Below, in pieces: positions 34,440-51,656 of a stretch of 64,000 nucleotides of DNA. The DNA lies in the NCBI RefSeq assembly GCF_900215505.1, contig NZ_LT907844.1:3488001-3552000 (forward strand), read 5' to 3'. Position 1 is the first letter of the stretch, and every line of letters starts with the position of its first letter. The position numbers and the translations under genes were made by a program. The stretch comes from Cohaesibacter sp. ES.047 (lineage in GTDB: Bacteria; Pseudomonadota; Alphaproteobacteria; Rhizobiales; Cohaesibacteraceae). Under the pieces are notes generated by a model, which searched no databases, had not been told where the DNA came from, and saw only the letters and a list, made by a program, of their open reading frames with translations.

Positions 34440-35066
34440 CTATGTGCAAACGCCAAACAACAGCAATTCCTTGACCGCCTGTTTTGTTTCCTGCCATTGC
34501 GCATCGGACAGGTCGTTGCCATCATTGAGGGTCGTGATCTGATGTTTGAAGTCGGCGTAGTGCTGGCTCGTTGCCCAGATGGCGAACAAGAGATGTTTGG
34601 GAGAAATGGGGCGGATCTTGCCATTTGCTATCCACTTGTTGATCACTTCAACACGCTCATTGGTCCAGGAGCGCAACTCGGATTCCAGATAATCCTGCAC
34701 GATGGGTGCGCCCTGAATGATCTCATTTGCCCACACCTTCGAGCCGTAGGGGCGTGTGCGCGCGAGTTCCAACTTGGTATCGATATAACTGGATAGAGCG
34801 AACTTCGGGTCGGCATCGACATGGAGCTCGTCGGCCGCTTCTCGCCAGACAGTGAAAATGTCTTCTACAACAGTGCGGTAGAGTAGTTCCTTGGTCGAAA
34901 AGTAATAAACAATATTGGACTTCGGTAAGCCTGCGGCCTCTGCAATCTTGCTGATGGATGCTCCACTATAGCCGAACTCTGCAAATATGATTTCTGCTGC
35001 TGACAGAATCTTTTCTATATTCTTCTCGCGGTTCAGTTGCTGCTTAGTTGCGGGGTGAGCTTCCAT
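34440..35066 (-). CDS. RutR-like TetR-family repressor of pyrimidine catabolism
   Basis: A 208-residue regulator. Residues 15-62 form a TetR HTH (ILSAAEIIFAEFGYSGASISKIAEAAGLPKSNIVYYFSTKE). The C-terminal domain (YGSKVWANEIIQGAPIVQDYL) resembles the RutR/YcdC type, which in E. coli binds uracil and thymine. It is divergent from, and 288 bases away from, the aminotransferase that starts the uracil catabolic genes, and a duplicated dyad-like element lies between them. The likely role is repression of that set, relieved by a pyrimidine. I cannot confirm the ligand from sequence alone. Confidence 0.85.
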   Translation of the reverse strand: MEAHPATKQQLNREKNIEKILSAAEIIFAEFGYSGASISKIAEAAGLPKSNIVYYFSTKELLYRTVVEDIFTVWREAADELHVDADPKFALSSYIDTKLELARTRPYGSKVWANEIIQGAPIVQDYLESELRSWTNERVEVINKWIANGKIRPISPKHLLFAIWATSQHYADFKHQITTLNDGNDLSDAQWQETKQAVKELLLFGVCT

Positions 35067-35243
35067 GAACGATCCTGTGCATACTTATCGTGTTTCCACG
35101 CAATATCAGTGCTTTGCACCAAGTTTTTCTCGGTGGTCTTCGTGAAATGCCTAGTCGTTCCAACAAAAACCGTCTGTTTTTTGTGCCGATCACAGCCTGT
35201 ATTTTGAGCAAATGGCTCATGGCCAAGCAATAAAGTATAATTC

Positions 35244-35282
35244 TGACCGATCGTGCAGATAATATATTGACCGATCGTGCAG
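35244..35282. promoter_or_regulatory. Duplicated candidate operator for the RutR-like repressor
   Basis: TGACCGATCGTGCAG occurs exactly twice (35244-35258 and 35268-35282), 24 bases apart, and TAAT follows both copies one base later. Each copy has CGATCG at its centre and a TGACC left half. This left half resembles half of the E. coli RutR box (TTGACCA-N2-TGGTCAA, from memory), while the right half is imperfect. It lies 72-111 bases before the aminotransferase start, between the divergent repressor and catabolic genes. Confidence 0.72.
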
Positions 35283-35354
35283 CTAATGCAATCGTTCTTA
35301 TCACAAAAGCCGGAATAGGCAATAATTCATCCGTGAAGGATTAGGGGAAGAGCG

Positions 35355-36662
35355 ATGAGAAATGATCTTTCGGCATTCTGGATGCCCTTTACTGCCAATC
35401 GGCAGTTCAAGGCGGCACCAAGGATGTTTGTGTCGGCTGAGGGAATGCATTACCAGACCGCAGACAATCGTCAAGTGCTGGACGGCACGGCGGGGCTTTG
35501 GTGTTGTAATGCGGGACACAGACGTCCCAGGATTGTGGAAGCGATCAAGGCGCAGGCCGAAGAGCTCGATTATGCTCCGGCCTTCCAGATCGGTCATCCA
35601 AAGGCATTCGAGCTGGCAACCAAGCTTCGCGACATGGCCCCTGAAGGCATGGAGCATGTCTTCTTCACCAACTCCGGCTCCGAGAGTGTCGAGACGGCAC
35701 TCAAGATTGCACTGGCCTACCACCGCGCCAATGGGCAAGGGGAGCGCACGCGCCTTATCGGTCGCGAGCGTGGCTACCACGGCGTCAATTTCGGCGGCAT
35801 CTCCGTTGGTGGTATCACCAACAACCGCCGCATGTTCGGCTCGCTCCTGACCGGCGTTGATCATCTGTCCTCGACCCATTTGCCTGACCAGAACAATTTC
35901 GTCAAAGGCATGCCCGAGCATGGCGCGGATCTCGCCGACGAGCTTCTGCGCATGATTGCGCTGCATGGGGCGGAGACGATTGCTGCGGTTATCGTTGAGC
36001 CTGTCGCTGGCTCTACCGGTGTGCTCATCCCGCCCAAGGGGTATCTCGAGCGCCTGCGGGCCATTACCGAGCAGCATGGCATTCTGTTGATCTTTGATGA
36101 GGTCATCACCGGCTTTGGTCGCCTCGGTGCACCGTTCGCAACTGACTATTTCGGCGTGACGCCTGACCTCATTACCTGCGCCAAGGGCCTGACGAACGGC
36201 GTCATTCCCATGGGCGCGGTGCTGAGCACGCCCAAGATCCATGATGCCTTCATGAATGGGCCGGAACATCTCATCGAGCTGTTCCACGGCTATACCTATT
36301 CGGGCAATCCGATTGCGTCGGCAGCAGGCATCGCAACCCTTGAAACCTATGCCGAGGATGGCCTGTTCGAGCGTGCCAATGAGCTGGCTCCCTATTGGGA
36401 AGACGCGTTGCATGGCCTCAAGGGGCTGCCGCATGTGATTGACATCCGCAACATCGGCCTGATTGGTGCGATTGAGCTGGAAGCGATCCCTGGCGAGCCG
36501 ACCAAACGCGCCTTTGAGTGCTTCATCAAGGCCTTTGAGAAAGGTGTGCTCATTCGCACCACTGGCGACATCATCGCCCTGTCACCGCCGCTCATTATCG
36601 AAAAAGAACAGATCGACCAGATCTTCGACACCCTCGCGACAATCCTCAAGGAGCTCGACTAA
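35355..36662 (+). CDS. Omega-amino acid:pyruvate aminotransferase (beta-alanine transaminase)
   Basis: A 435-residue class III aminotransferase with PLP-binding K277 (CAKGLTNG), the IFDEVITGFGR strand carrying the cofactor-contacting Asp, and an N-terminal FWMPFTANRQFKAAPRM typical of beta-alanine:pyruvate transaminases. It converts beta-alanine (from uracil) or 3-aminoisobutyrate (from thymine) to malonate or methylmalonate semialdehyde. It is the first gene after the candidate repressor operator and lies 3 bases before the semialdehyde dehydrogenase gene. The ribosome binding site is GGGGAAGAG. Confidence 0.93.
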   Translation: MRNDLSAFWMPFTANRQFKAAPRMFVSAEGMHYQTADNRQVLDGTAGLWCCNAGHRRPRIVEAIKAQAEELDYAPAFQIGHPKAFELATKLRDMAPEGMEHVFFTNSGSESVETALKIALAYHRANGQGERTRLIGRERGYHGVNFGGISVGGITNNRRMFGSLLTGVDHLSSTHLPDQNNFVKGMPEHGADLADELLRMIALHGAETIAAVIVEPVAGSTGVLIPPKGYLERLRAITEQHGILLIFDEVITGFGRLGAPFATDYFGVTPDLITCAKGLTNGVIPMGAVLSTPKIHDAFMNGPEHLIELFHGYTYSGNPIASAAGIATLETYAEDGLFERANELAPYWEDALHGLKGLPHVIDIRNIGLIGAIELEAIPGEPTKRAFECFIKAFEKGVLIRTTGDIIALSPPLIIEKEQIDQIFDTLATILKELD

Positions 36663-36665
36663 CCC

Positions 36666-38156
36666 ATGTATCAGGTGAAGAATCTCATCAACGGGGACAT
36701 GGTCGCCTCGACCTCCGGCCGGGACAACGCCATTTTCAACCCCGCGACAGGAGAGCAGATCGGCGCAGTGGGACTGTCGAGCGAGGCGGAAATCAATCAA
36801 GCCGTGGCAGCGGCCAAGGCTGCATTGCCCGCATGGGCAGCTCTTCCGCCCGCAAAACGAGCGCGCGTCATGTTCTCCTACGCTGCGTTGGTGCGCGAGA
36901 AGGCCGACGACATCGCGCGGGAAATCAGCCGCGAGCACGGCAAGACCCATGATGATGCTCTGGGTGAAGTCACCCGTGCGCTGGAAGTCATCGAGTATGC
37001 CTGCGCCATTCCCGAGCTGCTCAAGGGTGAATTCTCCCGCAATGTCGGCTCAGGCATCGACACCCATTCCGAACGCCAGCCGCTTGGGGTCGTTGCCGGG
37101 ATAACGCCGTTCAATTTCCCCGCAATGGTGCCGATGTGGATGTTCCCCATGGCTATTGCCTGCGGCAACACCTTTATCCTCAAACCCTCTGAGCGTGACC
37201 CGTCTGCGGCCACATTCGTCTGTGAGCTGTTGGTGCAAGCTGGGTTACCCAAGGGCGTGATCAACGTCGTGCATGGTGACAAGAGCGCCGTTGATACGTT
37301 GCTCGATCATCCGGACATCAAGGCCGTCAGCTTTGTTGGATCGACGCCGATTGCCGAATATGTCTATCGCCGCGGGACCGATAGCGCCAAGCGCGTTCAG
37401 GCGCTGGGTGGGGCCAAGAACCACATGATCATCATGCCCGATGCGGACATGGAGCAGGCAGCCGATGCCTTGATGGGGGCCGGGTTCGGTTCTGCTGGCG
37501 AGCGCTGCATGGCTGTCTCCGTTGCCGTGCCCATCGGCGAGGAAACCGCAACCAAACTTGTCGATACGCTCAAGCCCAAGGTGGAAGCGCTCAAGATCGG
37601 CCCCTCGACGGATGAAGCCGCTGAAATGGGCCCCGTCATCACCGCCGAAGCCAAGGCTCGCATTACCGGCCTTATCGATAGTGGTGTGGAGCAGGGGGCT
37701 GACCTCGTGGTCGATGGCCGCGGCTTCCAGCTTCAGGGTTATGAAGGCGGCTATTTTTTCGGCGGAACCCTGTTCGACAAGGTCAAGCCTGACATGGACA
37801 TCTACAAGACCGAGATTTTCGGCCCGGTCCTGTCGGTTCTGGAGCCGCAGAGTTTTGAGAGCGCAGTCAAGCTGATCAACGATCACGAATATGGCAACGG
37901 CACCGCCATCTTTACCCGGAATGGTGACGCTGCCCGCAAATTTTCCAGCGGCATCGAAGTCGGCATGGTCGGCATCAATGTTCCAATTCCCGTGCCCGTG
38001 GCCTTCCATTCCTTCGGCGGCTGGAAGCGTTCGAGCTTTGGCTCACATGGCATCTACGGCCCTGAAGCCGTTCATTTTTATACACGATTGAAAACGACAA
38101 CAACCCGTTGGCCCGAAGGCCTGTCCGAGGGCGCGGTCTTTACCTTCCCCAGTTAG
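36666..38156 (+). CDS. mmsA: CoA-acylating (methyl)malonate-semialdehyde dehydrogenase
   Basis: A 496-residue aldehyde dehydrogenase with catalytic C281 (GERCMA) and the MMSDH-type features GITPFNFPAMVPMWMFP and VGINVPIPVPVAFHSFGGWK. The enzyme turns malonate semialdehyde or methylmalonate semialdehyde into acetyl-CoA or propionyl-CoA plus CO2, using CoA and NAD+. Immediately following the transaminase, it completes the lower part of uracil/thymine degradation. The start ATG is 3 bases after the upstream stop. Confidence 0.95.
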   Translation: MYQVKNLINGDMVASTSGRDNAIFNPATGEQIGAVGLSSEAEINQAVAAAKAALPAWAALPPAKRARVMFSYAALVREKADDIAREISREHGKTHDDALGEVTRALEVIEYACAIPELLKGEFSRNVGSGIDTHSERQPLGVVAGITPFNFPAMVPMWMFPMAIACGNTFILKPSERDPSAATFVCELLVQAGLPKGVINVVHGDKSAVDTLLDHPDIKAVSFVGSTPIAEYVYRRGTDSAKRVQALGGAKNHMIIMPDADMEQAADALMGAGFGSAGERCMAVSVAVPIGEETATKLVDTLKPKVEALKIGPSTDEAAEMGPVITAEAKARITGLIDSGVEQGADLVVDGRGFQLQGYEGGYFFGGTLFDKVKPDMDIYKTEIFGPVLSVLEPQSFESAVKLINDHEYGNGTAIFTRNGDAARKFSSGIEVGMVGINVPIPVPVAFHSFGGWKRSSFGSHGIYGPEAVHFYTRLKTTTTRWPEGLSEGAVFTFPS

Positions 38157-38163
38157 GGGAAGG
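38143..38163 (+). other. Hairpin over the mmsA stop codon
   Basis: CCTTCCCC / GGGGAAGG (8 bp) with a 5-base loop spans the mmsA stop. A weak T-run (CACCTTT) follows, so termination is uncertain. It may separate the first two catabolic genes from the next pair or protect their mRNA 3' end. Confidence 0.5.
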
Positions 38164-38358
38164 CACCTTTATTGATTAAATGAGCCCCATAAAAGCCGGC
38201 CAAACGGCGGGGCCTTCCAGAGCATAGAATGCACTTCGCGAAACGCTATTGGCGGTTCTCAGGCGAGGTGTATCTAAAATCAGGCGCCTCATCATGGTGA
38301 TCGACCCATGTCGGATATCCATGTCGGATCATGTGGCGCCAAAACAGGGAACAAGACT

Positions 38359-39600
38359 ATGAAATCAAATCTTCGAGTGGATTCCGATCGCCTTTGGCAG
38401 TCCATCATGGACATGGCAAAAATCGGTCCGGGCATTGCAGGCGGCAACAATCGCCAGACACTGACTGATGAAGACGCGGAAGGCCGCGCCCTGTTCAAGA
38501 GTTGGTGTGATGATGCTGGCCTGACCATGGGCGTCGACAAGATGGGCACCATGTTCATGACCCGCGCAGGCACCGATCCCGATGCCCTGCCGGTCTATGT
38601 TGGCTCGCACCTCGATACCCAGCCCACGGGCGGTAAATATGACGGTGTGCTCGGTGTGCTGAGCGCCCTTGAACTTGTCCGTACCCTCAATGACGCCGAT
38701 ATCAAGACCAAACATCCAATCGTCGTGACCAACTGGGCCAACGAGGAAGGCGCGCGTTTCTCGCCGCCCATGCTCTCCTCTGGCGTTTTTGCTGGTGTTA
38801 ACACGCTGGACTATGCCTACGGTCGTCACGATCTGGAAGGCAAGACCTACGGTGAAGAGCTGGAGCGCATCGGCTGGGTTGGCGATGAGGACGTGGGTGC
38901 ACGCAAGATGCACGCCTATTTCGAATATCACATAGAGCAGGGCCCGATCCTTGAAGCCGAGCAAAAGGAAATCGGCGTTGTGACCCACTGTCAGGGTCTG
39001 TGGTGGCTCGAATTCACCCTCACTGGCAAGGAAGCCCACACCGGCTCAACCCCGATGGCGATGCGCGTCAACGCAGGGCTGGCCATGGCGCGGATCTTCG
39101 AGATGGTGCAGGACGTCACGATGGCTGCCCAGCCGAACGCCGTTGGCGGGGTAGGACAGGTGACTTTCTCGCCCAACTCGCGCAACGTGCTGCCCGGTAC
39201 GGTGACCTTCACGGTCGATATCCGCACCGTCGATATCGACAAGCTCAACTCCATGCGCGACCAGATCAAGGAGAAGGCCGCAGTCATCTGTGAGGAGCTG
39301 GGTGTTGGTTGCTCGGTCGAGCAGGTCGGCCAGTTCGATCCCGTCACCTTTGATCCCGCACTCGTTGACAAGGTGCGCAATGCAGCAATCGAGCTTGGCT
39401 ACTCCCACATGGATCTTGTCTCAGGTGCGGGTCATGATGCCTGCTGGGCGGCCAAGGTCGCCCCGGCCACGATGATCATGTGTCCCTGCGTTGATGGCCT
39501 CAGCCACAACGAAGCGGAAGATATCTCGCAAGGCTGGGCCACCGCCGGTGCTGACGTCATGCTCCGCGCCGTGCTGGAAACCGCCGAGATCGTCGAATAA
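38359..39600 (+). CDS. N-carbamoyl-beta-alanine amidohydrolase (M20 metal-dependent type)
   Basis: A 413-residue M20-family amidohydrolase of the carbamoylase/allantoate hydrolase branch. Metal-binding stretches are visible: GSHLDTQPTGGKYDG (His, Asp), TNWANEEGARF (Glu pair) and EYHIEQGPILEAE. GAGHDACWAAKVAPATMIM carries a late active-site His. Placed directly before dihydropyrimidinase in a uracil catabolic set, it most likely hydrolyses N-carbamoyl-beta-alanine to beta-alanine, CO2 and ammonia. The ATG at 38359 follows CAGGGAACAAGACT; an in-frame ATG at 38308 would add 17 residues unlike the family. Confidence 0.9.
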   Translation: MKSNLRVDSDRLWQSIMDMAKIGPGIAGGNNRQTLTDEDAEGRALFKSWCDDAGLTMGVDKMGTMFMTRAGTDPDALPVYVGSHLDTQPTGGKYDGVLGVLSALELVRTLNDADIKTKHPIVVTNWANEEGARFSPPMLSSGVFAGVNTLDYAYGRHDLEGKTYGEELERIGWVGDEDVGARKMHAYFEYHIEQGPILEAEQKEIGVVTHCQGLWWLEFTLTGKEAHTGSTPMAMRVNAGLAMARIFEMVQDVTMAAQPNAVGGVGQVTFSPNSRNVLPGTVTFTVDIRTVDIDKLNSMRDQIKEKAAVICEELGVGCSVEQVGQFDPVTFDPALVDKVRNAAIELGYSHMDLVSGAGHDACWAAKVAPATMIMCPCVDGLSHNEAEDISQGWATAGADVMLRAVLETAEIVE

Positions 39601-39734
39601 CAGCGAGTGAAAAAGTACAAAATTCGGAAGACCGGAATTCGAACAACAAAAAGCAGGCAAAAGCTTGCCCGGTTCGGTCTTCCTCAATCACCAAAGCAAT
39701 TCGTCAAAGAACACAGATTATTGGGAACAGCAAC

Positions 39735-41189
39735 ATGAGCACAGTGATCAAGGGCGGCACCATTGTCACCGCCGATCTGACCTATGATGCCGACGTGAAG
39801 ATCGAAGAGGGTATCATAACCGAAATCGGACCGAACCTGTCCGGCGACGAAGTTCTCGATGCGGCTGGCTGCTATGTCATGCCGGGCGGCATCGATCCCC
39901 ATGTGCATCTCGAAATGCCATTCATGGGAACCTACTCCACCGACAATTTCGAATCCGGCACCCGCGCTGCGGTCTCCGGTGGCACCACCATGGTCGTTGA
40001 CTTCTGCCTGCCTGATCCGGGGCAAAGCATGATGGATGCGCTGAAGCGTTGGGACAACAAGTCAACCCTCGCGACCTGCGACTATTCCTTCCATATGGCC
40101 ATCACCTGGTGGGGCGAGCAGGTCTTCAATGAAATGGAGACGGTCGTCAAGGAAAAGGGCATCAACACGTTCAAGCACTTCCTTGCCTACAAGGGTGCCT
40201 TGATGGTCAACGATGATGAGCTCTTTGCCTCCTTCCAGCGCTGCGCCGAGCTGGGCGCCATGCCGCTTGTCCATGCCGAAAACGGCGATGTTGTCGCCCA
40301 GATGCAGGCCAAGCTGATGGCCGAAGGCACCACCGGCCCCGAAGGCCATGCCTATTCGCGCCCGGCCGAAGTTGAAGGCGAAGCCACCAACCGCGCCATC
40401 ATGATCGCTGATATGGCAGGCGTGCCGCTCTATGTGGTGCATACCTCCTGCGAGCAGAGCCATGAAGCCATCCGCCGCGCCAAACAGGCAGGCATGCGCG
40501 TGTATGGTGAGCCGCTCATCCAGCATCTGACCCTTGATGAAAGCGAATATTTCAACAAGGACTGGGATCATTCCGCCCGCCGCGTCATGAGCCCGCCGTT
40601 CCGCAACAAGAAGCATCAGGATAGTCTCTGGGCCGGACTGCAGTCAGGCACGCTCTCTTGCGTGGCAACCGATCATTGCGCCTTCACCACCGATCAGAAA
40701 CGCTATGGCGTCGGCGATTTCACCAAGATCCCGAATGGCACCGGCGGCCTTGAAGACCGTATGCCAATGCTCTGGACCCATGGGGTGGCAACCGGTCGTT
40801 TGACCCCGAATGAGTTCGTGGCCGTGACCTCGACCAACATTGCCAAGATCCTCAACATGTACCCGAAAAAGGGTGCGATCCTTGTTGGCTCCGATGCCGA
40901 TATCGTCGTGTGGGATCCCAAGCGGTCCAAAACCATCAGCGCCGCCAATCAGGTGTCCGCCATCGATTACAGCGTCTTCGAAGGCAAGGAAGTCACCGGC
41001 CTGCCGCGCTTCACCCTGTCGCGCGGCAAGGTTCTGGTCGAGGAAAGCACGCTCAAGACCGAGGCTGGCCACGGCAAGTTCGTCGGGCGGCAACCGTTCA
41101 CCGCAGTCAACAAGTCGCTTTCCAAGTGGAAAGAACTGGTTGCTCCGCGTCCAGTCGAGCGCACCGGCATTCCGGCCTCCGGCGTGTAA
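39735..41189 (+). CDS. Dihydropyrimidinase / D-hydantoinase
   Basis: A 484-residue cyclic amidohydrolase. Metal ligands H56 and H58 are in DPHVHLEMPF, the carboxylated lysine is K153 (FKHFLAYKGALM), and later His and Asp ligands are in AENGDVV, HTSCEQ and TDHCAFTTDQK. It opens dihydrouracil or dihydrothymine to N-carbamoyl-beta-alanine (or its methyl form). It therefore needs a supply of dihydropyrimidine, and no dihydropyrimidine dehydrogenase is encoded in this window. An ABC importer for a probable related substrate follows. Confidence 0.94.
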   Translation: MSTVIKGGTIVTADLTYDADVKIEEGIITEIGPNLSGDEVLDAAGCYVMPGGIDPHVHLEMPFMGTYSTDNFESGTRAAVSGGTTMVVDFCLPDPGQSMMDALKRWDNKSTLATCDYSFHMAITWWGEQVFNEMETVVKEKGINTFKHFLAYKGALMVNDDELFASFQRCAELGAMPLVHAENGDVVAQMQAKLMAEGTTGPEGHAYSRPAEVEGEATNRAIMIADMAGVPLYVVHTSCEQSHEAIRRAKQAGMRVYGEPLIQHLTLDESEYFNKDWDHSARRVMSPPFRNKKHQDSLWAGLQSGTLSCVATDHCAFTTDQKRYGVGDFTKIPNGTGGLEDRMPMLWTHGVATGRLTPNEFVAVTSTNIAKILNMYPKKGAILVGSDADIVVWDPKRSKTISAANQVSAIDYSVFEGKEVTGLPRFTLSRGKVLVEESTLKTEAGHGKFVGRQPFTAVNKSLSKWKELVAPRPVERTGIPASGV

Positions 41190-41269
41190 GCCAGAACTGA
41201 TCGGGTTCCGGCGGTGTCTGCCGCCCGGAATCCGGCCCCATTGTGATTAGGGCTACGGGAAAACAACAC

Positions 41270-42076
41270 ATGATCGAATCCCACTACCACGTGGTCTCTG
41301 CCAAGGATCTCTGCCTGACATTCGAGACCAATGACGGGCCGGTTCATGCCCTCAAGGATGTCAACATCACCGTCGACAAGGGCGACTTTGTCAGTTTCAT
41401 TGGCCCCTCGGGCTGTGGCAAGACGACCTTCTTGCGCGCAATCGCGGCGCTTGAACATCCCACCTCAGGTTCCTTGCTGGTCAACGGCACAACGCCAGAA
41501 CTTGCCCGTCAGGATCGCGCCTACGGCTATGTGTTTCAGGCTGCGGGCCTTTATCCGTGGCGCACGATTGCCCGCAACATCAAATTGCCGCTCGAAATCA
41601 TGGGGTTCACCCGTGCCGAGCAGAACAAGCGCGTCGAGCGCGTTTTAAAGCTCGTGGATCTCGAAGGCTTTGGCAACAAATTCCCATGGCAGCTTTCGGG
41701 CGGTATGCAGCAGCGTGCCTCTATCGCCCGCGCACTTGCCTTCGATGCCGATATTCTGCTGATGGATGAGCCGTTCGGGGCACTCGATGAAATCGTCCGA
41801 GACCACCTCAACGAACAGCTTCTGCACCTGTGGCGCAGCACCGGCAAGACCATCGGTTTTGTGACCCATTCGATCCCTGAAGCCGTGTATTTGTCGACCA
41901 AGATCGTCGTCATGAGCCCGCGTCCTGGCCGGATCACCGACATCATCGAAAGCACTTTGCCCGATGAACGCCCGCTGTCCATCCGTGACAGTCAGGAGTT
42001 TATCGACATCGCGCACCGCGTCCGTGAGGGCTTGCGCGCAGGTCACGGCGACGAGGGAGACAGCGCCGATGCGTAA
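41270..42076 (+). CDS. NMT1/taurine-type ABC importer ATPase
   Basis: A 268-residue ATPase with Walker A GPSGCGKTT (residues about 47-55), signature LSGGMQQRA, Walker B ILLMDEPFGALDE and the switch His in VTHSIPEA. This is the SsuB/TauB/ThiZ class, serving binding proteins of the NMT1/THI5 fold. Together with two permeases and a binding protein downstream it forms an importer embedded between pyrimidine catabolic and F420 genes, so a pyrimidine or a dihydropyrimidine-like compound is a reasonable substrate guess. ATG 41270 was chosen over an upstream GTG. Confidence 0.9.
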   Translation: MIESHYHVVSAKDLCLTFETNDGPVHALKDVNITVDKGDFVSFIGPSGCGKTTFLRAIAALEHPTSGSLLVNGTTPELARQDRAYGYVFQAAGLYPWRTIARNIKLPLEIMGFTRAEQNKRVERVLKLVDLEGFGNKFPWQLSGGMQQRASIARALAFDADILLMDEPFGALDEIVRDHLNEQLLHLWRSTGKTIGFVTHSIPEAVYLSTKIVVMSPRPGRITDIIESTLPDERPLSIRDSQEFIDIAHRVREGLRAGHGDEGDSADA

Positions 42077-43774: not shown

Positions 43775-43845
43775 AAAGCCCTGATAACAACCAAAATAAT
43801 AGCAACACCTAAAGCAAAACAAAGCAAACCCATAGGGAACTGACT

Positions 43846-44841
43846 ATGAAGAACACTTTGAAACATTTCGCTGCTGGTGCGGTCTTTGCCGCTTCGCTTA
43901 CTGGTGCCGCGTCTGCCGCTGATGATTTGACCCTTCAGCTCAAATGGGTCACGCAGGCTCAGTTTGGAGGCTACTATGTCGCGCTGGAAAAGGGCTTCTA
44001 TGATGAAGAAGACCTCAACGTGACGATCAAACCGGGCGGGCCGGATATTGCGCCGACCCAGATCCTTGCCGGTGGCGGTGCTGATGTGGTTGTCGACTGG
44101 ATGCCATCCGCTCTGGCTGCTCGCGAAAAGGGCCTGCCGCTCGTCAACATCGCACAGCCTTACAAATCCTCCGGCATGATGCTGACGTGCCTCAATGAAA
44201 GCGGCATCAAGTCTCCTGAAGATTTCCCCGGCAACACCCTTGGCGTGTGGTTCTTCGGCAACGAATATCCCTTCCTGAGCTGGATGAGCATCCTGGGCAT
44301 CCCGACCGAAGGTGGCGACGATGGCGTGACTGTCCTGAAACAGGGCTTCAACGTCGATCCGCTGCTGCAGAAACAGGCGGCCTGTATCTCCACCATGACC
44401 TACAACGAATATTGGCAGGTTATCGACGCAGGCATTTCTCCGGACGAGCTGATCACCTTCAAATATGAAGATCAGGGCGTGGCCACGCTCGAGGATGGTC
44501 TTTATGTGCTTGAAGAAAAACTGGATGATGAAGCCGAAGTCGACAAGCTGGTCCGCTTCGTTCGTGCATCCATGAAAGGCTGGAAATACGCCGAAGAAAA
44601 CTCAGATGAAGCCGCTGAAATCGTTCTGGAATATGACGAAACCGGCGCCCAGACCGAAAAACATCAGAAGCGCATGATGGGTGAAGTGGCCAAACTGACC
44701 GCTGGTTCCAACGGCGCGCTTGATCCGGCCGACTATGAGCGCACCGTCAAGACACTGATGAGCGGTGGGTCCGCGCCGGTCATCACCAAGGAACCGGAAG
44801 GGGCCTATACCCTGAAGATCACCGACGCAGCCCTCAAATAG
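43846..44841 (+). CDS. NMT1/THI5-like periplasmic binding protein
   Basis: A 331-residue protein with a signal peptide (MKNTLKHFAAGAVFAASLTG, cleavage probably after ASA at residue 24). The fold of NMT1/THI5-like binding proteins is recognised from LQLKWVTQAQFGGYYVALEKGFYDEEDLNV at the mature N-terminus. Family members carry thiamine-precursor pyrimidines, riboflavin precursors or other planar compounds. The context suggests a pyrimidine base or a cyclic amide. The start has AGGGAAC 7-13 bases upstream. It is the last gene before a 220-base gap and the F420 operon. Confidence 0.9.
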   Translation: MKNTLKHFAAGAVFAASLTGAASAADDLTLQLKWVTQAQFGGYYVALEKGFYDEEDLNVTIKPGGPDIAPTQILAGGGADVVVDWMPSALAAREKGLPLVNIAQPYKSSGMMLTCLNESGIKSPEDFPGNTLGVWFFGNEYPFLSWMSILGIPTEGGDDGVTVLKQGFNVDPLLQKQAACISTMTYNEYWQVIDAGISPDELITFKYEDQGVATLEDGLYVLEEKLDDEAEVDKLVRFVRASMKGWKYAEENSDEAAEIVLEYDETGAQTEKHQKRMMGEVAKLTAGSNGALDPADYERTVKTLMSGGSAPVITKEPEGAYTLKITDAALK

Positions 44842-44916
44842 GGTTACTCGGATGTCTGTGCTCCGGTGCTGATCCAAAGATCGAGCCGCAGCGCAGACCT
44901 TGAGCGCAATTTAGCT

Positions 44917-44946
44917 CCGGCGGATGGCAATGCACTCATCCGCCGG
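44917..44946. other. Perfect 10-bp hairpin between the importer and F420 operons
   Basis: CCGGCGGATG pairs perfectly with CATCCGCCGG across a 10-base loop. No T-tract follows, so it is not a classical intrinsic terminator. It may still end or stabilise the importer message, or be a dyad-symmetric protein-binding site in front of the F420 genes. Confidence 0.6.
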
Positions 44947-45011
44947 GCGCGGTGAACTAAATTCCAAGACATAACGGCATTGGCGCACCCATAAGGCTGC
45001 GCAACGGGGAA

Positions 45012-45047
45012 GCTGTCTTCTAAATCGGTATCAAACCGACAGACAGC
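45012..45047. other. Imperfect hairpin just upstream of cofG
   Basis: GCTGTC (45012-45017) pairs with GACAGC (45042-45047), and inside it TCGGT pairs with ACCGA around an ATCAA loop; the interior loop is asymmetric. It sits immediately before the start codon region and could be an operator or affect translation initiation. The functional call is speculative. Confidence 0.4.
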
Positions 45048-45061
45048 CATGAGTGAGCAGA

Positions 45062-46285
45062 ATGCAGAGTTACGCCAGTTTACAGAGTGACACCGGACAA
45101 AGGCTTGATCGACACCGCGCCGCACGCATTGGCCTGATCGATGGTGCGCCGCCCGAGCACAACGCCATCGATCTGACGCGCGCCCCGCTTAAGGAACTGA
45201 TGGCAACGGCGCGTAACATTCGCGATCAGCATTGGGGCCGCGATGTCACCTATTCGCGCAAGGTTTTCGTTCCGCTGACCAATATGTGCCGCGACACCTG
45301 TAGCTATTGCACCTTTGTCAAGCATCCCGATGATCCCGAAGCCAAGCTGATGACGCCGGATGAAGTGCTCGCCATCGCGCGGGAAGGCGAGGATCAGGGC
45401 TGCAAAGAGCTGCTCTTCAGCCTCGGTGAAAAACCAGAACTGAGATATGAGAAGGCCCGTGCCGCCTTGGCCATGCTCGGCTATGAGCGTATGACCGACT
45501 ATCTGGCCGACATGTGCGCATTGGTGCTCAAAGAAACGAGCCTTCTGCCCCATGTGAATGCGGGCACTTTGGAGGAAGACGAACTCAAAAAACTGCGTCC
45601 CGTCGCTGCTTCCATGGGCATGATGCTGGAGACGACCTCCCGCCGCCTGATGAAGGAGGGCGGTCCTCATTACGCCTGCCCGGACAAGGTGCCGCTGCAA
45701 CGGCTCAGGACCTTGGAGCGCGCCGGTCGCCAGCAGGTGCCGTTTACGACCGGTCTTCTCATCGGTATTGGCGAGACCTTCGAAGAACGCATCGAAGCGC
45801 TACATGCCATCAACGAGACCCATCAGAAATATGGGCAGATTCAGGAAGTCATCATCCAGAATTTCCAGCGCAAGCCGGACATCGCCATGGCCAACTCGCC
45901 AGAGCCTGCGCTCGATGAAATGCTGCGCACCATCGCCGCCGCCCGGATCATCCTGTCCCCTGATATCAGCCTGCAGGCCCCGCCTAATCTGAGTGCGCGC
46001 CACATGGCCTATCTGGATGCAGGGATCAATGACTGGGGCGGCATTTCGCCGGTGACCATCGATTTTATAAACCCCCAGCACGCCTGGCCGCAGATCGACC
46101 AACTGGCCCAATCCTGCGAGGAAGCAGGCTATCGCCTGCGCGAGCGGCTGACCATCTATCCCAAATATCTGCAAGGATCGGGCGATTTCCTCAGTGCCGA
46201 CCTGCAGCCGCGCGTGTCCGCCATGGCCGATTCAGACGGCCTTGCACACGCCTTCAACCCAAAGGCAGAAGGAGCCGGGCAATGA
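45062..46285 (+). CDS. cofG: F420 biosynthesis: FO synthase subunit 1 (CofG)
   Basis: A 407-residue radical SAM protein with the cluster motif C-x3-C-x2-C in NMCRDTCSYCTF, preceded by YSRKVFVPLT, which is typical of CofG. With CofH it makes FO (7,8-didemethyl-8-hydroxy-5-deazariboflavin) from tyrosine and 5-amino-6-ribitylamino-uracil. In actinobacteria the two are fused as FbiC; here they are separate genes, overlapping by 4 bases (ATGA). ATG 45062 and a GTG at 45053 are both possible starts; neither has a strong ribosome binding site. It begins the F420 operon. Confidence 0.95.
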   Translation: MQSYASLQSDTGQRLDRHRAARIGLIDGAPPEHNAIDLTRAPLKELMATARNIRDQHWGRDVTYSRKVFVPLTNMCRDTCSYCTFVKHPDDPEAKLMTPDEVLAIAREGEDQGCKELLFSLGEKPELRYEKARAALAMLGYERMTDYLADMCALVLKETSLLPHVNAGTLEEDELKKLRPVAASMGMMLETTSRRLMKEGGPHYACPDKVPLQRLRTLERAGRQQVPFTTGLLIGIGETFEERIEALHAINETHQKYGQIQEVIIQNFQRKPDIAMANSPEPALDEMLRTIAAARIILSPDISLQAPPNLSARHMAYLDAGINDWGGISPVTIDFINPQHAWPQIDQLAQSCEEAGYRLRERLTIYPKYLQGSGDFLSADLQPRVSAMADSDGLAHAFNPKAEGAGQ

Positions 46286-47547
46286 TGAGTGGATCCGAAA
46301 ACAGTTTCGCAAAAGGTGTGACCAAGGTGTCCAGCCCTGTCCGTGACATTCTTGATCGCGTGCTTGAGGGAAGGGAAATCTCTAAGGCCGAGGGAGTGGT
46401 GCTCTTCCGCGCGGCGAGCCAAAGCGACAAACAGGCAATCTTTGAGACCGCCGACAGTCTCAAACAGCGGGTTCATGGCGACCGGGTGACCTTCACCGTC
46501 AACCGGAACATCAACTTCACCAACATCTGCTACATGGGCTGCAAGTTTTGTAACTTCGCCAAACGGTCTGATGAAGACGGGGCCGAGTGGCAATCGGTCG
46601 AACAGGTCTTGCAGCGCTGTCACGAGGCATGGGACCGCGGCGCGACCGAGGTCTGCATTCAGGGCGGACTGCATCCCAAGCTTCCCGGCTCCTACTATGC
46701 GGATCTGTGCCGCGCCATCAAGGCCGAACTGCCCGACATGCATCTGCATGCCTTCTCACCGTTCGAAATCTGGTATGGCGCATCGAAAAGCAAAAAGCCC
46801 TACCGGGAATTTCTCGAAGAATTGAAGGATGCAGGTCTCGGAACCATGCCCGGCACCGCAGCCGAGATCCTCGACACTGACATCCGCAAACAACTCACCA
46901 AGGACAAGTTGAGCACCGAAAAATGGGTCGAAATCGTCCGCACGGCCCATGAGGTCGGCATCAAGACGACCTCGACCATCATGTATGGCCATATCGACGG
47001 GCCCGAGCATTGGGCCGCACACATCGATCTGTTGCGTTCCATCCAGAAGGACACGGGCGGCTTCACTGAATTTGTGCCGCTGTCGTTCCAGCATGTGGGC
47101 ACTGCGCTCTATATGGAAAATCCCGACAAGGTGCGTCTGGGCCCCAGCACGGACGAGATCGACCTGATGCATGCGGTTGCGCGCATCATGTTGCATGGGT
47201 TCATTGACAACATCCAGGTCTCGTGGACCAAGTTGGGAGCAGAGCACGCCATGGCCATGCTCTCCCGCGGGGCCAACGATCTGGGTGGCACCCTGATGGA
47301 GGAAAGCATTTCCCGCTCGGCCGGTGCCGATCATGGACAGGAAATCACCGCCCATGAGTTGGTGCAAATCGTCCGCGCCTCGGGCCGCACGCCTGCGCGT
47401 CGGTCCAGTGACTATCGCATTCTGGAAGTCTTTGATGATCATGATCCGGTGCGTCTGGACCCACTCATCGATCGTAATGGCTCCGACCCGCTCGACTTTC
47501 TGGCCAGGTTCCCCGACCAATCGGGCAAGCTGGAGGCTGCTGAATGA
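46282..47547 (+). CDS. cofH: F420 biosynthesis: FO synthase subunit 2 (CofH)
   Basis: A 421-residue radical SAM protein with C-x3-C-x2-C in NICYMGCKFCNF and the CofH-type stretches EVCIQGGLHPKLPGSYY, PFEIWYGASKSKKPYREFLEELKDAGLGTMPGTAAEIL and YGHIDGPEHWAAHIDLLRSIQ. It generates the tyrosine-derived radical that couples to the ribityl-aminouracil substrate. It overlaps cofG upstream and cofD downstream by 4 bases each. Length is slightly above many stand-alone CofH proteins, mainly by N- and C-terminal extensions. Confidence 0.95.
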   Translation: MMSGSENSFAKGVTKVSSPVRDILDRVLEGREISKAEGVVLFRAASQSDKQAIFETADSLKQRVHGDRVTFTVNRNINFTNICYMGCKFCNFAKRSDEDGAEWQSVEQVLQRCHEAWDRGATEVCIQGGLHPKLPGSYYADLCRAIKAELPDMHLHAFSPFEIWYGASKSKKPYREFLEELKDAGLGTMPGTAAEILDTDIRKQLTKDKLSTEKWVEIVRTAHEVGIKTTSTIMYGHIDGPEHWAAHIDLLRSIQKDTGGFTEFVPLSFQHVGTALYMENPDKVRLGPSTDEIDLMHAVARIMLHGFIDNIQVSWTKLGAEHAMAMLSRGANDLGGTLMEESISRSAGADHGQEITAHELVQIVRASGRTPARRSSDYRILEVFDDHDPVRLDPLIDRNGSDPLDFLARFPDQSGKLEAAE

Positions 47548-48524
47548 AGCGTGAGGCGGCTCTCAAGGTCACGCTTCTGGCTGGAGGCGTTGGCGGCGCG
47601 AAAATGGCCGAAGGTCTCGCGGCTCTCGGCGATATCGAACTGTCGATCATCGGCAATGTCGCGGACGATGATGCTTTCCATGGTCTTTGGGTCTCCCCTG
47701 ACATTGATACGCTGACTTATTCGCTTGGCGGAATGATCAACCGCCAGCAGGGTTGGGGGCTGGCGGACGAGGGAACACGTGCGCTCGACACTCTGACCAT
47801 GCTTGGCGAAGATACATGGATGATGCTGGGCGACAAGGATTTCGGTCTTCACATATACCGCACCATGCGCCGGGCGAAGGGCGACAGACCCTCCGAGATT
47901 GCCCGGGATGTTGCCAAGGCCTTTGGCGTCAAGCCGCAAATCTTGCTGCCGACCGATGACAAGGTGCAAACCCGCGTGCGTACAGACGATGGCTGGATTA
48001 GCTTTCAGGACTATTTCGTCAGACGCAAATGCGCACCCGAAGTGCGCGAATTGCAGTTTGACGGCATAGAAGAGGCCGAGCCAACCAAGGAAGCCCTGAC
48101 GGCGCTCGGTGAGGCCGACCTGATCGTCATTGCTCCCTCGAACCCGCTGGTCAGCATCGCGCCGATCCTTGAGACAAAAGGCCTCCGTGGTGCTGTCGCT
48201 CGTGCCAAGGCTCCGAAAATCGCCGTCAGCCCCTTCATTGCTGGCAAAGTGGTCAAGGGCCCCGCCGATCGCATGATGGCTGCCCTTGGCTTGCGCGCGG
48301 ATGCCGCCGGTGTTGCGGAGCGTTATGCCGGTTGGCTCGACTGCCTCATCATCGACCATCAGGATGAAGCCCTCAGCGCGGACATCAATGCACACGGTAT
48401 TTCGGCCCATTGCTCCGATATCCTGATGAAGGATCAGGCCGACAAGGCACGCCTTGGACGCGAGATTGTCGGTCTTGGTCGTCAATGGCTCAAGAAGCAG
48501 CTTAAGGAGGGCAGGGCAGGATGA
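47544..48524 (+). CDS. cofD: F420 biosynthesis: phospho-lactyl-type transferase (CofD)
   Basis: A 326-residue CofD/FbiA-family protein beginning KVTLLAGGVGGAKMAEGLA, the family's nucleotide-binding start, followed by NVADDDAFHGLWVSPDIDTL and IVIAPSNPLVSIAPIL. It transfers the lactyl-phosphate-type moiety from the guanylylated CofC product to FO, giving F420-0 or a variant. It overlaps cofH and cofC by 4 bases each, so the pathway genes are translationally coupled. Confidence 0.95.
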   Translation: MKREAALKVTLLAGGVGGAKMAEGLAALGDIELSIIGNVADDDAFHGLWVSPDIDTLTYSLGGMINRQQGWGLADEGTRALDTLTMLGEDTWMMLGDKDFGLHIYRTMRRAKGDRPSEIARDVAKAFGVKPQILLPTDDKVQTRVRTDDGWISFQDYFVRRKCAPEVRELQFDGIEEAEPTKEALTALGEADLIVIAPSNPLVSIAPILETKGLRGAVARAKAPKIAVSPFIAGKVVKGPADRMMAALGLRADAAGVAERYAGWLDCLIIDHQDEALSADINAHGISAHCSDILMKDQADKARLGREIVGLGRQWLKKQLKEGRAG

Positions 48525-49174
48525 ATGCACATACCAAAAAATGCCTTCTCGCGATCCCGATGAAGGATCCACTTGACGCCAAGACCCGCCTGTCGATCTC
48601 CCTCACTCAGCAGGAAAGAGCGCGTCTTGCGACCGCGCTGTTCATTCACGTCGTGGAATGCGTCAAGCGCGCGCTGACACTGCTTCCAGACAGTCACATC
48701 GACATCGGCGTCATCACGAGCAGCGAAACGATCCGGGATCTGGTCGCCGGTCTCGATGTCAAATGGATCGATGACGGAGGCGCTTCAACCCTGTCGTGCG
48801 CTGTTGATCAAGCTGCCAAGATTGCACATGAACAGGGCTATGACATCCTTTGTGTCTTGCCCGGAGATCTGGCCGATCCGTCGCACAAGGACATTGCCCG
48901 ATTGCTCGACTATCCCAAGAGTGGGCGGGACGTCGTGATCTGTCCATCCGGCGATCTGGGCACCAACGCGCTCCTGTTGCCGCTGCCGTGTCCCATCGAT
49001 TTTGCCTACGGGGATCGGTCTTTCCATCGCCACTATCAAGCGTCTGTCGAAGCCGGGCTGGTGCCGGTCATCCTGCCCCTGAACAGCCTGAAGCGCGACG
49101 TCGATACGGTGCGTGATTGGCACGATCTGCAGCACAGACGCCCTGATGTGGCCTTCTGGAGTGATGGCCGATGA
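48521..49174 (+). CDS. cofC: F420 biosynthesis: phospho-acid guanylyltransferase (CofC)
   Basis: A 217-residue nucleotidyltransferase with CofC features: AIPMKDPLDAKTRLS at the N-terminus, DDGGASTLSCAVDQA, VLPGDLADPSHKDIARLL and the FAYGDRSFHRHYQAS region. It activates 2-phospholactate, phosphoenolpyruvate or 3-phosphoglycerate with GTP; which one cannot be read safely by eye. It is a stand-alone protein, not fused to other domains. ATGA overlaps link it to cofD and cofE. Confidence 0.92.
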   Translation: MNAHTKKCLLAIPMKDPLDAKTRLSISLTQQERARLATALFIHVVECVKRALTLLPDSHIDIGVITSSETIRDLVAGLDVKWIDDGGASTLSCAVDQAAKIAHEQGYDILCVLPGDLADPSHKDIARLLDYPKSGRDVVICPSGDLGTNALLLPLPCPIDFAYGDRSFHRHYQASVEAGLVPVILPLNSLKRDVDTVRDWHDLQHRRPDVAFWSDGR

Positions 49175-49941
49175 TGCAGGTTTCCCTTAGCGCCATCCCC
49201 GGTGTCCCCGACATCAGGGCCGGTGATGACCTTGCCAGCATCATTGGCGATTGTCTTGTGGCTAGCGATCTCGCCCCCCAAGACGGGGACATTCTCTGCG
49301 TGGCGCAAAAAGTCTTCTCAAAAGCCGAGGACTGCATCATTCCGCTGGCGAGCATCACGCCTTCCCCGGAAGCAGAACGCTATGCCAGCGAGCTGAACAA
49401 GGACGCCCGCAAGGTCGAGATCGTGCTGCGCGAAAGCTCCGAGGTGGTCCGCTCCTTCCGTCATCCCGGTCAGGAGCACGGCACCATTATCTGCCGCCAT
49501 CGCCTTGGTTTCATTTCCGCCAACGCAGCGGTGGACGAAAGCAACTTTGAAGAAACCGATGCCGTCATGACCTTGCCACCCGACCCTGACGCCAGTGTGG
49601 CCCGTCTTCAGGATGCTTTGAAGACGCGGTTTGGCTGTGAGGTTGGTGTCGTGATGACCGATACCTTTGGCCGTCCATGGCGGATCGGTCAGGTCAATGT
49701 CGCCATCGGCCTGTCTGGTGTTCCGTCCACCTTGCGCGAGCAGGGCAATGCGGATGCGTGGGGGCGTGTGATGACCGTCACCGAAGCGGCCTTCGCCGAC
49801 GAGCTGGCAGCCGCATCCGGCCTTGTCGTGCGCAAGGCGGCCAAAACTCCCATTGTGCTGTTTCGCGGGCTCGACTGGATCCCGACGACAAGCAGTGCTC
49901 AAGACCTTCTGAGAGTTAAAAAAGAGGATATGTTCAAATGA
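49171..49941 (+). CDS. cofE: F420-0:gamma-glutamyl ligase (CofE), stand-alone
   Basis: A 256-residue protein with the CofE/FbiB ligase domain: [53 protein letters not shown] and [21 protein letters not shown]. It adds glutamates to F420-0. It ends after the ligase domain and lacks the C-terminal nitroreductase-type FMN domain of mycobacterial FbiB, which reduces dehydro-F420. That absence argues against phosphoenolpyruvate as donor here. Two Met codons start the frame; the first overlaps cofC's stop. Confidence 0.94.
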
Positions 49942-50606
49942 CAATCGCAATCATAGGGGGAACGGGTCCACAAGGGCAGGGGCTTGCCCTGCGCTTTGCC
50001 CGTGCTGGAGTGCCCGTCGCGCTGGGGTCTCGCGATGCGGGCCGTGCCGCCGAAATTGGTTCAGAACTCATGGCCCAGTTGGAAGACGCACCCGCCAAGA
50101 TCACAGGCCTTGCCAATGAGGACGCGGTCAAGGCCGCTGATGAGCTGGTCATTCTGGCCGTGCCTTTCGCGGGCCATAACGCCACGCTGGAGGCCTTGAA
50201 ACCTCATCTGGCCGGCAAGATCCTGGTCGATATCGTGGTGCCACTGTCGGAGAAGGATCCCAAGAAGGTTTCAATGCCCCCGGAAGGGTCTGCAACGGAA
50301 GCCGCACAGGCGTTGCTCGGCCCGGATATTCCGGTCATCGGGGCCCTCCACAATGTCTCTGCCACAACGCTGAAAAATCTCGGCTGGGACATCAATTGCG
50401 ACATTCTTGTCTGTGGCAACAGCCTTGATGCCCGCAAGAAGGTTATGGCTCTGATCGGGAAGCTGGGCGTGACAGCCTACAATGCCGGTGACGCCGAAGC
50501 GGCCCGTTGTATAGAGGCGATCACCCCCATTCTCATTCGCATCAATATTTCAAAACAGGTGCCCTTCACCCATGCGGGGATCAAGATCTGGGCACCGGAT
50601 CACTAA
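49938..50606 (+). CDS. npdG: NADPH:F420 oxidoreductase
   Basis: A 222-residue Rossmann protein starting [24 protein letters not shown], the NADP-binding start of NpdG/Fno, followed by [15 protein letters not shown], where Ser-Arg binds the 2'-phosphate. [31 protein letters not shown] and a C-terminal [22 protein letters not shown] fit the family. It exchanges hydride between NADPH and F420; in a bacterium without F420-reducing hydrogenase it most likely makes F420H2. The 4-base overlap with cofE puts cofactor recycling in the same unit as cofactor synthesis. Confidence 0.94.
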
Positions 50607-50651
50607 ACATAAAAACAACAAACAACAATCACCGAAACTTTGGAGAGAGAG

Positions 50652-51656
50652 ATGGAATTCGCGATTTGTTTCAAAGGCTTTGTCGAACCAAAGCGGGCGC
50701 GCGCCCTTGTTCGTCAGGCCGAGAATGCTGGCTTCACCTATTGCTGGTTTTATGACAGCCACATCCTGTGGCGCGAGAGTTATATGGCCATGGCCATGTG
50801 CATGGAGCACACCACCAAGATGCGCTTTGGCCCTTGTGTGACCAACCCCAACACCCGCGACTGGTCGCTGGCCGCCTCCATGTTTGGCTCGCTCGCCAAA
50901 CAGTCCGAAGGCCGCTTTGACATCGGTCTTGGCCGTGGTGACAGCGCCGTTCGTGTGATGGGCAAGAAGCCCGCGCCGCTCAAGCGCCTTGAAGAATTCA
51001 CCCATGTGGTCAAGGCTCTGGTGCGCGGCGATGAAGCCCAATATGGCGAATGTCCCGAACCGGTCAAATTCCCGTGGGCGGAAGGCTATGAGTTGCCGAT
51101 CTGGGTCGCGGCCTACGGCCCGAAGGCGCTGAGTTCTGCCGGACGTGTGGGTGACGGTCTCATCCTGCAAATCGCGGAGCCAAGCATCGTCAAATGGCTG
51201 GCCAGTACGGCAATCGAGGAAGGCGAGAAAGCAGGCCGCGACATGAGCAACTATCGTGTCATGGCGGCTGCCCCTGCCTACTTCGGCTCCAAGGAAGAAT
51301 GCATCGAGGCAACCCGTTGGTTCCCGGCCATGGTGGGGAACCATGTTGCAGATATCGTTGAAAAATACGGCACCGAGCGCGATGATATCCCGGACTCGCT
51401 AACGGCTTACGTCAAGGATCGCAAGGGCTATGACTATTCCAAGCACGGCCAGAGCGACAACCCCTATCTTGATTTCATTACTGATGAAATTATCGAGGGC
51501 TTCTCGGTTCTCGGCGCTCCCGACGACCATATTTCCAAACTGAGAGAGCTGGAAGCCGCAGGCGTCACCCAGTTCAACATCTATCTCGATAACGGCAAGG
51601 AAGAGCAGATCATCGCCGAATATGGCGAGACCATCATCCCCGCATTCTCGAAATAG
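50652..51656 (+). CDS. LLM-class F420-dependent oxidoreductase, candidate uracil/thymine reductase
   Basis: A 334-residue luciferase-like TIM-barrel protein closest in pattern to Mer-type F420 enzymes: the CVTNPNTRDWSLAASMFGSLAKQSEGRFDIGLGRGDSAV block resembles methylenetetrahydromethanopterin reductase. I recall a TIGRFAM-type family named for Colwellia CPS_4043 with this length and proteobacterial F420 context and no assigned function. ATG 50652 follows GGAGAGAGAG. It ends the cof operon, and a terminator follows. The role as F420H2:uracil reductase is my inference from the neighbouring uracil pathway, which lacks its first enzyme; it does not look like RutA. Confidence 0.88.
   Translation: MEFAICFKGFVEPKRARALVRQAENAGFTYCWFYDSHILWRESYMAMAMCMEHTTKMRFGPCVTNPNTRDWSLAASMFGSLAKQSEGRFDIGLGRGDSAVRVMGKKPAPLKRLEEFTHVVKALVRGDEAQYGECPEPVKFPWAEGYELPIWVAAYGPKALSSAGRVGDGLILQIAEPSIVKWLASTAIEEGEKAGRDMSNYRVMAAAPAYFGSKEECIEATRWFPAMVGNHVADIVEKYGTERDDIPDSLTAYVKDRKGYDYSKHGQSDNPYLDFITDEIIEGFSVLGAPDDHISKLRELEAAGVTQFNIYLDNGKEEQIIAEYGETIIPAFSK

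Follow-up and report, generated by a model that had tools for sequence, protein, structure and literature searches.

A probable F420H2-dependent pyrimidine reductase of the LLM family at the first step of a reductive uracil and thymine degradation pathway in Cohaesibacter sp. ES.047

The reductive breakdown of pyrimidines is known to begin with PreTA/PydA, an enzyme of the dihydropyrimidine dehydrogenase (DPD) type that draws on NAD(P)H to reduce uracil and contains FAD, FMN, and iron-sulfur clusters. In the DNA of Cohaesibacter sp. ES.047 analyzed here (the window, a stretch of 64,000 nucleotides, G000:C1:3488001-3552000, of a single-contig genome of 5.11 Mb), the same reaction is proposed for an unrelated LLM-family protein, a single LLM-type barrel that would use F420H2, and that is encoded at 50640-51656, beside genes for the later steps of the pathway. 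In relatives, PreTA stands in the same place as this protein, before a cassette of beta-ureidopropionase (UPase), dihydropyrimidinase (DHPase), and ABC importer genes. It is quite probable, from the comparison of genomes, that the LLM protein is an F420H2-dependent pyrimidine reductase, which opens the reductive catabolism of pyrimidines and replaces the unrelated PreTA.

A number of other described systems resemble this locus in part. The ferredoxin-dependent dihydropyrimidine dehydrogenase PydAc, found in Pyd clusters, likewise represents a variant in the electron donor for the reduction of uracil, although, in the accessible part of its description, it remains a homologue of PydA (PMC7332683), which the LLM protein is not. 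The closest idea in print is that of a putative F420-dependent yanthine reductase of the luciferase family, proposed in 2025 for the uricolytic (uric-acid) clusters of the Chloroflexota (PMC12507026). As outlined in the available portion of that paper, an LLM-type F420 protein is also proposed to replace a flavoenzyme in the reductive dearomatization of a nucleobase-type ring, but the ring is derived from a purine, the phylum is different, and the likeness is one of description, rather than of proteins compared. The F420-dependent methylene-H4MPT reductase, Mer, is nearest to the LLM protein in both solved fold and sequence, and shares its F420-site motifs, but has a catalytic glutamate (Glu6) where the LLM family has Cys10, Thr, or Ala. 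The Rut pathway (RutA-G) also has a RutR-type sensor and operator-like sites, but RutA was not found in this genome, where DHPase and UPase are present instead. Among the matches listed from the open-access literature (preprints and most subscription papers being outside its scope), no statement on an F420-dependent uracil reductase was found, nor any paper that refers to TIGR03842, the family of the LLM protein, by name.

The preliminary description of the region 34440-51656, which was based on the sequence alone, proposed a set of genes for pyrimidine degradation, uptake, and F420 metabolism, all of which were recovered in the positions given there with strong family support, based on the curated NCBIfam cut-offs. 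The features are as follows.

34440..35066, minus strand: RutR-like TetR repressor, the probable uracil sensor (TIGR03613, 184 bits, below the cut-off of 368)
35242..35259, no strand: RutR-operator-like site 1, in the RutR/AptA divergent region (palindrome model, 17.2 bits)
35266..35283, no strand: RutR-operator-like site 2, a repeat of the core of site 1 (palindrome model, 12.7 bits)
35355..36662, plus strand: omega-aminotransferase AptA, probably for beta-alanine / beta-aminoisobutyrate (NF052567, 760 bits, cut-off 500)
36666..38156, plus strand: (methyl)malonate-semialdehyde dehydrogenase, MMSDH (TIGR01722, 701 bits, cut-off 448.5)
38308..39600, plus strand: N-carbamoyl-beta-alanine amidohydrolase, that is, beta-ureidopropionase, UPase (PRK09290.1-3 and TIGR01879, over cut-off; 8c46, 723 bits)
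39735..41189, plus strand: dihydropyrimidinase, DHPase (TIGR02033, 601 bits, cut-off 393; 3dc8, 940 bits)
41243..42076, plus strand: ABC importer ATPase (taurine/nitrate-type models, below their cut-offs; stays with the cassette in relatives)
41964..42932, plus strand: ABC importer permease 1 (weak ssuC/tauC/ntrB-type matches, below cut-off; stays with the cassette in relatives)
42830..43774, plus strand: ABC importer permease 2 (weak ssuC/tauC/ntrB-type matches, below cut-off; stays with the cassette in relatives)
43846..44841, plus strand: NMT1/THI5-type substrate-binding protein, SBP (PF09084, 119.9 bits; 3ix1, 69.6 bits)
45053..46285, plus strand: cofG (TIGR03550, 468 bits, over cut-off)
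46282..47547, plus strand: cofH (TIGR03551, 484 bits, over cut-off)
47544..48524, plus strand: cofD (TIGR01819, 278 bits, over cut-off)
48521..49174, plus strand: cofC (TIGR03552, 114.6 bits, over cut-off)
49171..49941, plus strand: cofE (TIGR01916, 228 bits, over cut-off)
49938..50606, plus strand: npdG/fno, NADPH:F420 reductase (TIGR01915, 190 bits, over cut-off)
50640..51656, plus strand: LLM-family protein, the proposed F420H2:uracil (pyrimidine) reductase (TIGR03842, 503 bits, cut-off 295)

The four enzymes named for the later steps (omega-aminotransferase, MMSDH, amidohydrolase, and dihydropyrimidinase) each exceed an NCBIfam cut-off, and a dihydropyrimidinase and a beta-ureidopropionase lie within one cluster, as is characteristic of the reductive pyrimidine (Pyd) type. 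The amidohydrolase is an M20 amidase of the hydantoinase/carbamoylase type (678 bits against a cut-off of 452, and 379 against 204), with best solved relatives among the N-carbamoyl-L-amino-acid hydrolases (8apz, 759 bits, and 8aq0, 751 bits), and it also matches the N-carbamoyl-beta-alanine amidohydrolase 8c46. The best solved relative of the DHPase by sequence is the dihydropyrimidinase 3dc8, while that of the SBP, at a modest score of approximately 70 bits, is the pyrimidine-binding protein 3ix1. The presence of the downstream reductive pathway in the window is well supported by these family matches.

The complete cofGHDCE set and the NADPH:F420 reductase named in the preliminary description also hold, given that CofG, CofH, CofD, CofC, CofE, and NpdG are all over their cut-offs. 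Neighboring cof genes share a few bases of overlap, only 33 bases separate the end of npdG from the LLM gene, and 211 bases lie between the importer genes and cofG, so that the segment from cofG through LLM reads as one tight operon downstream of the importer genes. The CofG and CofH of the window (45053-47547) are two separate proteins; a fused FbiC is given for the Proteobacteria in the part of the 2021 F420 review that was available (PMC8498797).

The preliminary description found no known first enzyme in the window, and this absence extends to the whole genome. No protein is over the cut-off of the PreA model (NF006183), for which the best partial match reaches 30.7 bits against 335, and the RutA model has no match at E 0.001, while the E. 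coli control was detected. The DHO_dh family (PF01180) has a single member at E 1e-10, presumably PyrD, in a frame of 386 aa, and a first enzyme of the PydA/PreA type (DHO_dh fold) was not found in the genome, PreT not having been searched for separately. A DPD-type enzyme elsewhere in the genome was considered and rejected, based on the PreA score and the single PF01180 protein. The observation itself, of the genes present and the known first enzymes not found, is confirmed.

The LLM protein, the closest relatives of which are found in Cohaesibacter species (90-94% identity), is well over the cut-off of TIGR03842, an NCBIfam 'hypoth_equivalog' listed without a function. It is the sole PF00296 protein of the genome, which also has no PF04075 protein, and no other F420 user besides NpdG was seen for this reason, in a search that covered these two families. 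The nearest solved folds to its AlphaFold model (mean pLDDT 87) are those of Mer (TM of approximately 0.78, 25-28% identity), and the two families have F420-site motifs in common, such as GP-x-VTN. The family, the Mer-like fold, and the linkage to cof and npdG suggest that the LLM protein binds and uses F420.

A Mer-type C1 reductase was considered and rejected, given that the protein scores below the Mer cut-offs (129 against 276 bits, and 131 against 349) and that the place of Glu6 is taken by Cys10, if the alignment is ungapped (profile 1-311 against residues 5-320). In the accessible text on Mer, the replacement of Glu6 by Gln retains 0.4% of the kcat (PMC11094777). An alignment of 36 rows, read by eye, has Cys in 25, Thr in nine, and Ala in two in the residue-10 column, while Asp101, which by our own count aligns with Asp96 of Mer, is invariant. 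The active site of DPD contains a cysteine, and Cys10 may, speculatively and by analogy, act as a proton donor in parallel to it, although the Thr in nine rows argues against a strict role of the cysteine. A second TIGR03842 clade (approximately 55-57% identity) is found at L010, L011, L041, and L042, in genomes with several LLM proteins, with the LLM gene beside npdG in L041 and L042. No DHPase or UPase was found around the LLM gene in the stretches read (L040-L042, 11-20 kb), and the function of this clade may differ.

The arrangement of the locus in relatives, based on the best 80 of the 173 found in a contig scan, provides the first line of support for the proposed function. At least one of UPase, DHPase, SBP, and AptA is present at 44% identity or more, within the DNA available, in 46 of the 80 LLM loci, with DHPase in 40, npdG in 69, and three or more cof genes in 53; after collapsing at 85% LLM identity, DHPase is nearby in 12 of 25 clusters. 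For 25 of the 80 loci, LLM is followed, 102-2398 bases further on, by a UPase gene that shares its strand, with a RutR-like gene in between in four cases (L065, L081, L090, and L092). The cassette of LLM, UPase, DHPase, ABC, and SBP also occurs without cof genes, in L076, L088, L093, L097, and L112 (10 kb before LLM examined), and in L095 (1.8 kb); L112 and G243:C108, a contig from the class survey, are probably identical.

The same type of cassette is preceded by PreT-PreA in L176, L177, L178, and L196 (the last without an importer in the 4 kb that remain on the contig), and in seven controls, L211-L217, which were picked for the presence of PreA and DHPase a few kb apart on one contig and show the arrangement, not its frequency. 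In a tree of 72 DHPases (a quick search with SH-aLRT support, some long branches, several genomes represented twice, and 19 near-duplicate loci excluded), the LLM-linked and PreTA-linked labels change at least four times, or at least twice for the PreTA label when only the well-supported (starred) branches are counted. The Thalassovita PreTA row, L177, falls in a 99% set with the LLM-linked L055, L081, and L173 (the last two from one genome), while the LLM-linked L065, L090, L092, and L109 share a 99% set with 10 of the 11 PreTA rows, together with a further 13 that have neither nearby. LLM and PreTA exchange at the same place before related cassettes in relatives, and the LLM gene stands, in some of these relatives, in the place of PreTA before orthologous cassettes.

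The second line of support comes from co-occurrence, a check that was run and turned out largely as predicted. In 50 LLM genomes, chosen from the best 80 loci with isolates first, DHPase is over the cut-off in 49. Given that a class-level survey recovered LLM over the cut-off in only five of 289 genomes, including the present one, which is too few for co-occurrence, a family-level sample was used, of 295 genomes from the family of Thalassovita autumnalis (G303), which we take to be the Rhodobacteraceae in GTDB terms, a few of them also among the 50 LLM genomes. This sample contains LLM in 13 genomes, PreA in 239, and DHPase in 259. Ten of the 13 genomes with LLM have no PreA, compared with 46 of the 282 without LLM (p 5e-6, ignoring shared ancestry), and, among the 259 DHPase genomes, LLM is concentrated in those that lack PreA (9/28, against 3/231 with PreA; Fisher p of approximately 1e-7, shared ancestry likewise ignored). 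RutA is over the cut-off in two (G380 and G317) of the 28 genomes tested that have LLM and lack PreA.

The third line of evidence, which goes beyond that of the preliminary description, is provided by RutR-operator-like sites upstream of cofG in relatives. The repressor of the window was described as RutR-like, which stands, given that its best solved relative is the RutR of E. coli (36% identity, 144 bits), even though it does not reach the cut-off of the RutR equivalog. The five residues that contact uracil in E. coli RutR (W77, Y97, W167, Q171, and Q179), as listed in the accessible text of PMC10891134, are conserved in the window repressor. They are kept in all 72 RutR-like rows, the window included, which were chosen from the window and 140 related loci by similarity to the window RutR and include copies of one genome; the repressor is probably a uracil sensor, judging from these residues.

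The operator model TTTGACCAATTGGTCAAA, which is palindromic by construction, was trained on 28 regions that separate divergent RutR-like and pyrimidine genes, 27 of them from relatives and one the RutR/AptA region of the window, with the cofG upstream regions kept outside the training set. It resembles the RutR box of E. coli, for which a literature search yielded no paper text. At 13 bits or more, a site is present upstream of cofG in 23 of 52 loci, against 1% of 400 random windows, and in 19 of 45 loci, against three of 355 control genes, which are other gene starts of the same loci (45 rather than 52, since a longer upstream stretch was required). The corresponding counts for the 45 cofG and 355 control regions are 20 and four at 10 bits, 12 and one at 15 bits, and five and one at 20 bits, and, at 13 bits, 11 of 22 cofG regions have a site once the loci are collapsed at 90% LLM identity. 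The 23 sites are 72-236 bases away from the cofG match, on its upstream side, in both Alpha- and Gammaproteobacteria (L116, L117, and L121). In four loci (L051, L054, L058, and L087), the site precedes cofG with no pyrimidine gene within 10 kb of the cof-LLM operon, the pyrimidine operon being found elsewhere in the genome.

The model trained on the relatives ranks the RutR/AptA region highest in the window, where site 1 is top-scoring; unrelated places reach 16.0 and 15.9 bits, so that the window's own sites, which are imperfect and scarcely above the background, are insufficient proof by themselves. The E. coli box, as an approximate query, has no site with fewer than three mismatches in 34301-52000.

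Based on these comparisons, we infer the substrate, the direction of the reaction, the position of the hydride, the regulation, and the use of F420 mainly for this step. The importer would take up the pyrimidine, and uracil would release the RutR-like repressor. The cof genes would then make F420, which NpdG would reduce with NADPH, and the LLM protein would hand the hydride from F420H2 to the ring, so that uracil (and/or thymine) would become its 5,6-dihydro derivative. The DHPase, UPase, AptA, and MMSDH would complete the route to an acyl-CoA. In 10 of the 80 LLM loci (L170, at 13628-16712 and from the same genome as L070, and L064, L066, L072, L075, L077, L078, L080, L081, and L083), the NAD(P) transhydrogenase PntA and/or PntB is located inside the LLM/cof/DHPase cluster or at its edge, which is fitting, given that Pnt would supply the NADPH needed by NpdG. 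The PntA of L170 exceeds its cut-offs and the PntB of that locus reaches 663 of 689 bits, while neither is found among the genes read in the cluster of the window. Several assemblies end inside the pnt genes, perhaps due to a second pnt copy in the genome. L072, from a record titled Nocardioides marinus, resembles the Leisingera loci in both gene order and sequence similarity, and the record is probably mislabeled or contaminated.

Several observations weigh against this proposal. A full PreA is also present in 18 of the 50 LLM genomes, where the LLM protein would either be redundant or have a related compound as its substrate, and the comparison does not separate uracil, thymine, or a close relative as the putative substrate. 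DHPase is missing, at E 1e-60, from one LLM-cof genome (G336, with locus L118); this genome is apparently G215 of the class survey, which is 98% complete, and it may be a true exception in which the enzyme has another use. The available DNA of 34 of the 80 LLM loci has no pyrimidine gene, many but not all of these loci being cut by contig ends, and several LLM genomes show no importer next to DHPase (for example, L180, L189, L190, and L191). The region upstream of cofG in the window has no operator-like site (score -9.0), and nor do those of its nearest relatives, L043 and L044. The sole-LLM status was established for the window's own genome; the class survey includes an LLM genome, G243, with seven matches to the TIGR03842 model, and G337, another LLM genome, has one PF04075 protein. 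Finally, LLM is absent from 19 of the 28 DHPase genomes that lack PreA. Three of these points slightly temper confidence in the proposed function: the LLM genome that lacks DHPase seems genuine, linkage was the basis on which the seven controls were picked, and the importer is not conserved throughout.

The alternative that survives best is that the ring reduced by the LLM protein is a related one (only thymine, a uracil substituted at position 5, or a different N-heterocycle from which DHPase and UPase are fed), with PreTA handling uracil where both occur. This is unlikely, but has appreciable weight, given that 17 of the 18 LLM genomes with PreA have two or more DHPases over the cut-off, against nine of the 32 without, and that DHPase is in or beside the LLM/cof cluster in five of the genomes with PreA (L159, L163, L170, L172, and L173). 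AptA and MMSDH could also accept methylated intermediates. The 32 LLM genomes without PreA over the cut-off, 31 of which have DHPase, argue against it, as does the fact that LLM and PreTA replace each other at the head of related cassettes.

It is improbable that cof and LLM are passengers of a cluster that imports and degrades dihydropyrimidines or hydantoins directly, with LLM in an unrelated role. The name of TIGR02033 is D-hydantoinase, a family that includes enzymes of this kind too, and both the 19 genomes with DHPase and neither PreA nor LLM and the LLM genome without DHPase are compatible with this explanation. It is opposed by the operator-like sites before cofG even where no pyrimidine gene is nearby, by the lack of a second PF00296 protein and of any PF04075 protein in this genome, and by the finding of another PreA-like protein in all five of the cassette genomes without LLM and PreA that were tested.

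One of the 19 genomes has RutA (G608), and seven LLM-less cassettes, L204-L210, were examined. The DHO_dh search, made in five of these seven genomes, recovered a PreA-like protein in all five (L210:6593-7702, L235, L236, L237, and L238), in frames of approximately 370-410 aa that are shorter than PreA; that of G599 stands directly before UPase, and the other four are 81-85% identical to it. The same search of 27 genomes with LLM and without PreA, including the present one, found an extra frame of 319-330 aa (227-240 bits) in G289, G290, and G292, a partial match at a contig end in G444, and a weak match of 52.5 bits in G315, with the 75-90-bit class of the five absent from all 27. This PreA-like protein is possibly a third first enzyme, and it is likely that at least three alternative heads exist for one cassette.

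A later role for the LLM protein, for example as an F420-dependent malonic-semialdehyde reductase, with another enzyme making dihydrouracil, is very improbable. An F420-dependent secondary alcohol dehydrogenase of the same fold (1rhc) is among its structure matches, and a variant of the Pyd pathway with a malonic-semialdehyde reductase, PydE, is described in the available part of PMC7332683. The semialdehyde step is, however, already covered by MMSDH in the window, the nearest family is Mer, and the concentration of LLM in genomes without PreA would be unexpected for a later step. RutA is also a luciferase-like protein, but a RutA-like oxygenase that opens the uracil ring is hardly credible here and was rejected, given the lack of a match to the RutA model in the genome and the Mer-like F420 family of the protein, as well as the fact that oxidative ring opening would presumably make DHPase pointless.

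The region beside the cluster (51731-58703 of the window) encodes a member of the acetamidase/formamidase family and a further M20 amidase of the carbamoylase type on the other strand, followed by peptide-type ABC importer genes on the plus strand, and is perhaps another cluster for the use of amides or hydantoins.

The proposal that the LLM protein reduces uracil or thymine with F420H2, first made in the preliminary description, is supported by the comparison of genomes. The available part of the 2021 review reports trace F420 in Paracoccus denitrificans, with a presumed minor or niche role (PMC8498797); this species carries the cluster (L082), has neither PreA nor RutA over the cut-off, and would thus be a natural test organism. 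If true, the proposal extends the reductive breakdown of uracil and thymine by a further, non-homologous first enzyme. It is also rather probable that, in a range of Alpha- and Gammaproteobacteria, F420 is a catabolic cofactor under the control of RutR, with uracil inducing its synthesis, and that the TIGR03842 enzyme reduces pyrimidines at the end of a chain that starts, in some genomes, with the PntAB transhydrogenase and continues through NpdG, which would represent a non-homologous replacement of PreTA that has been exchanged several times within one operon family.

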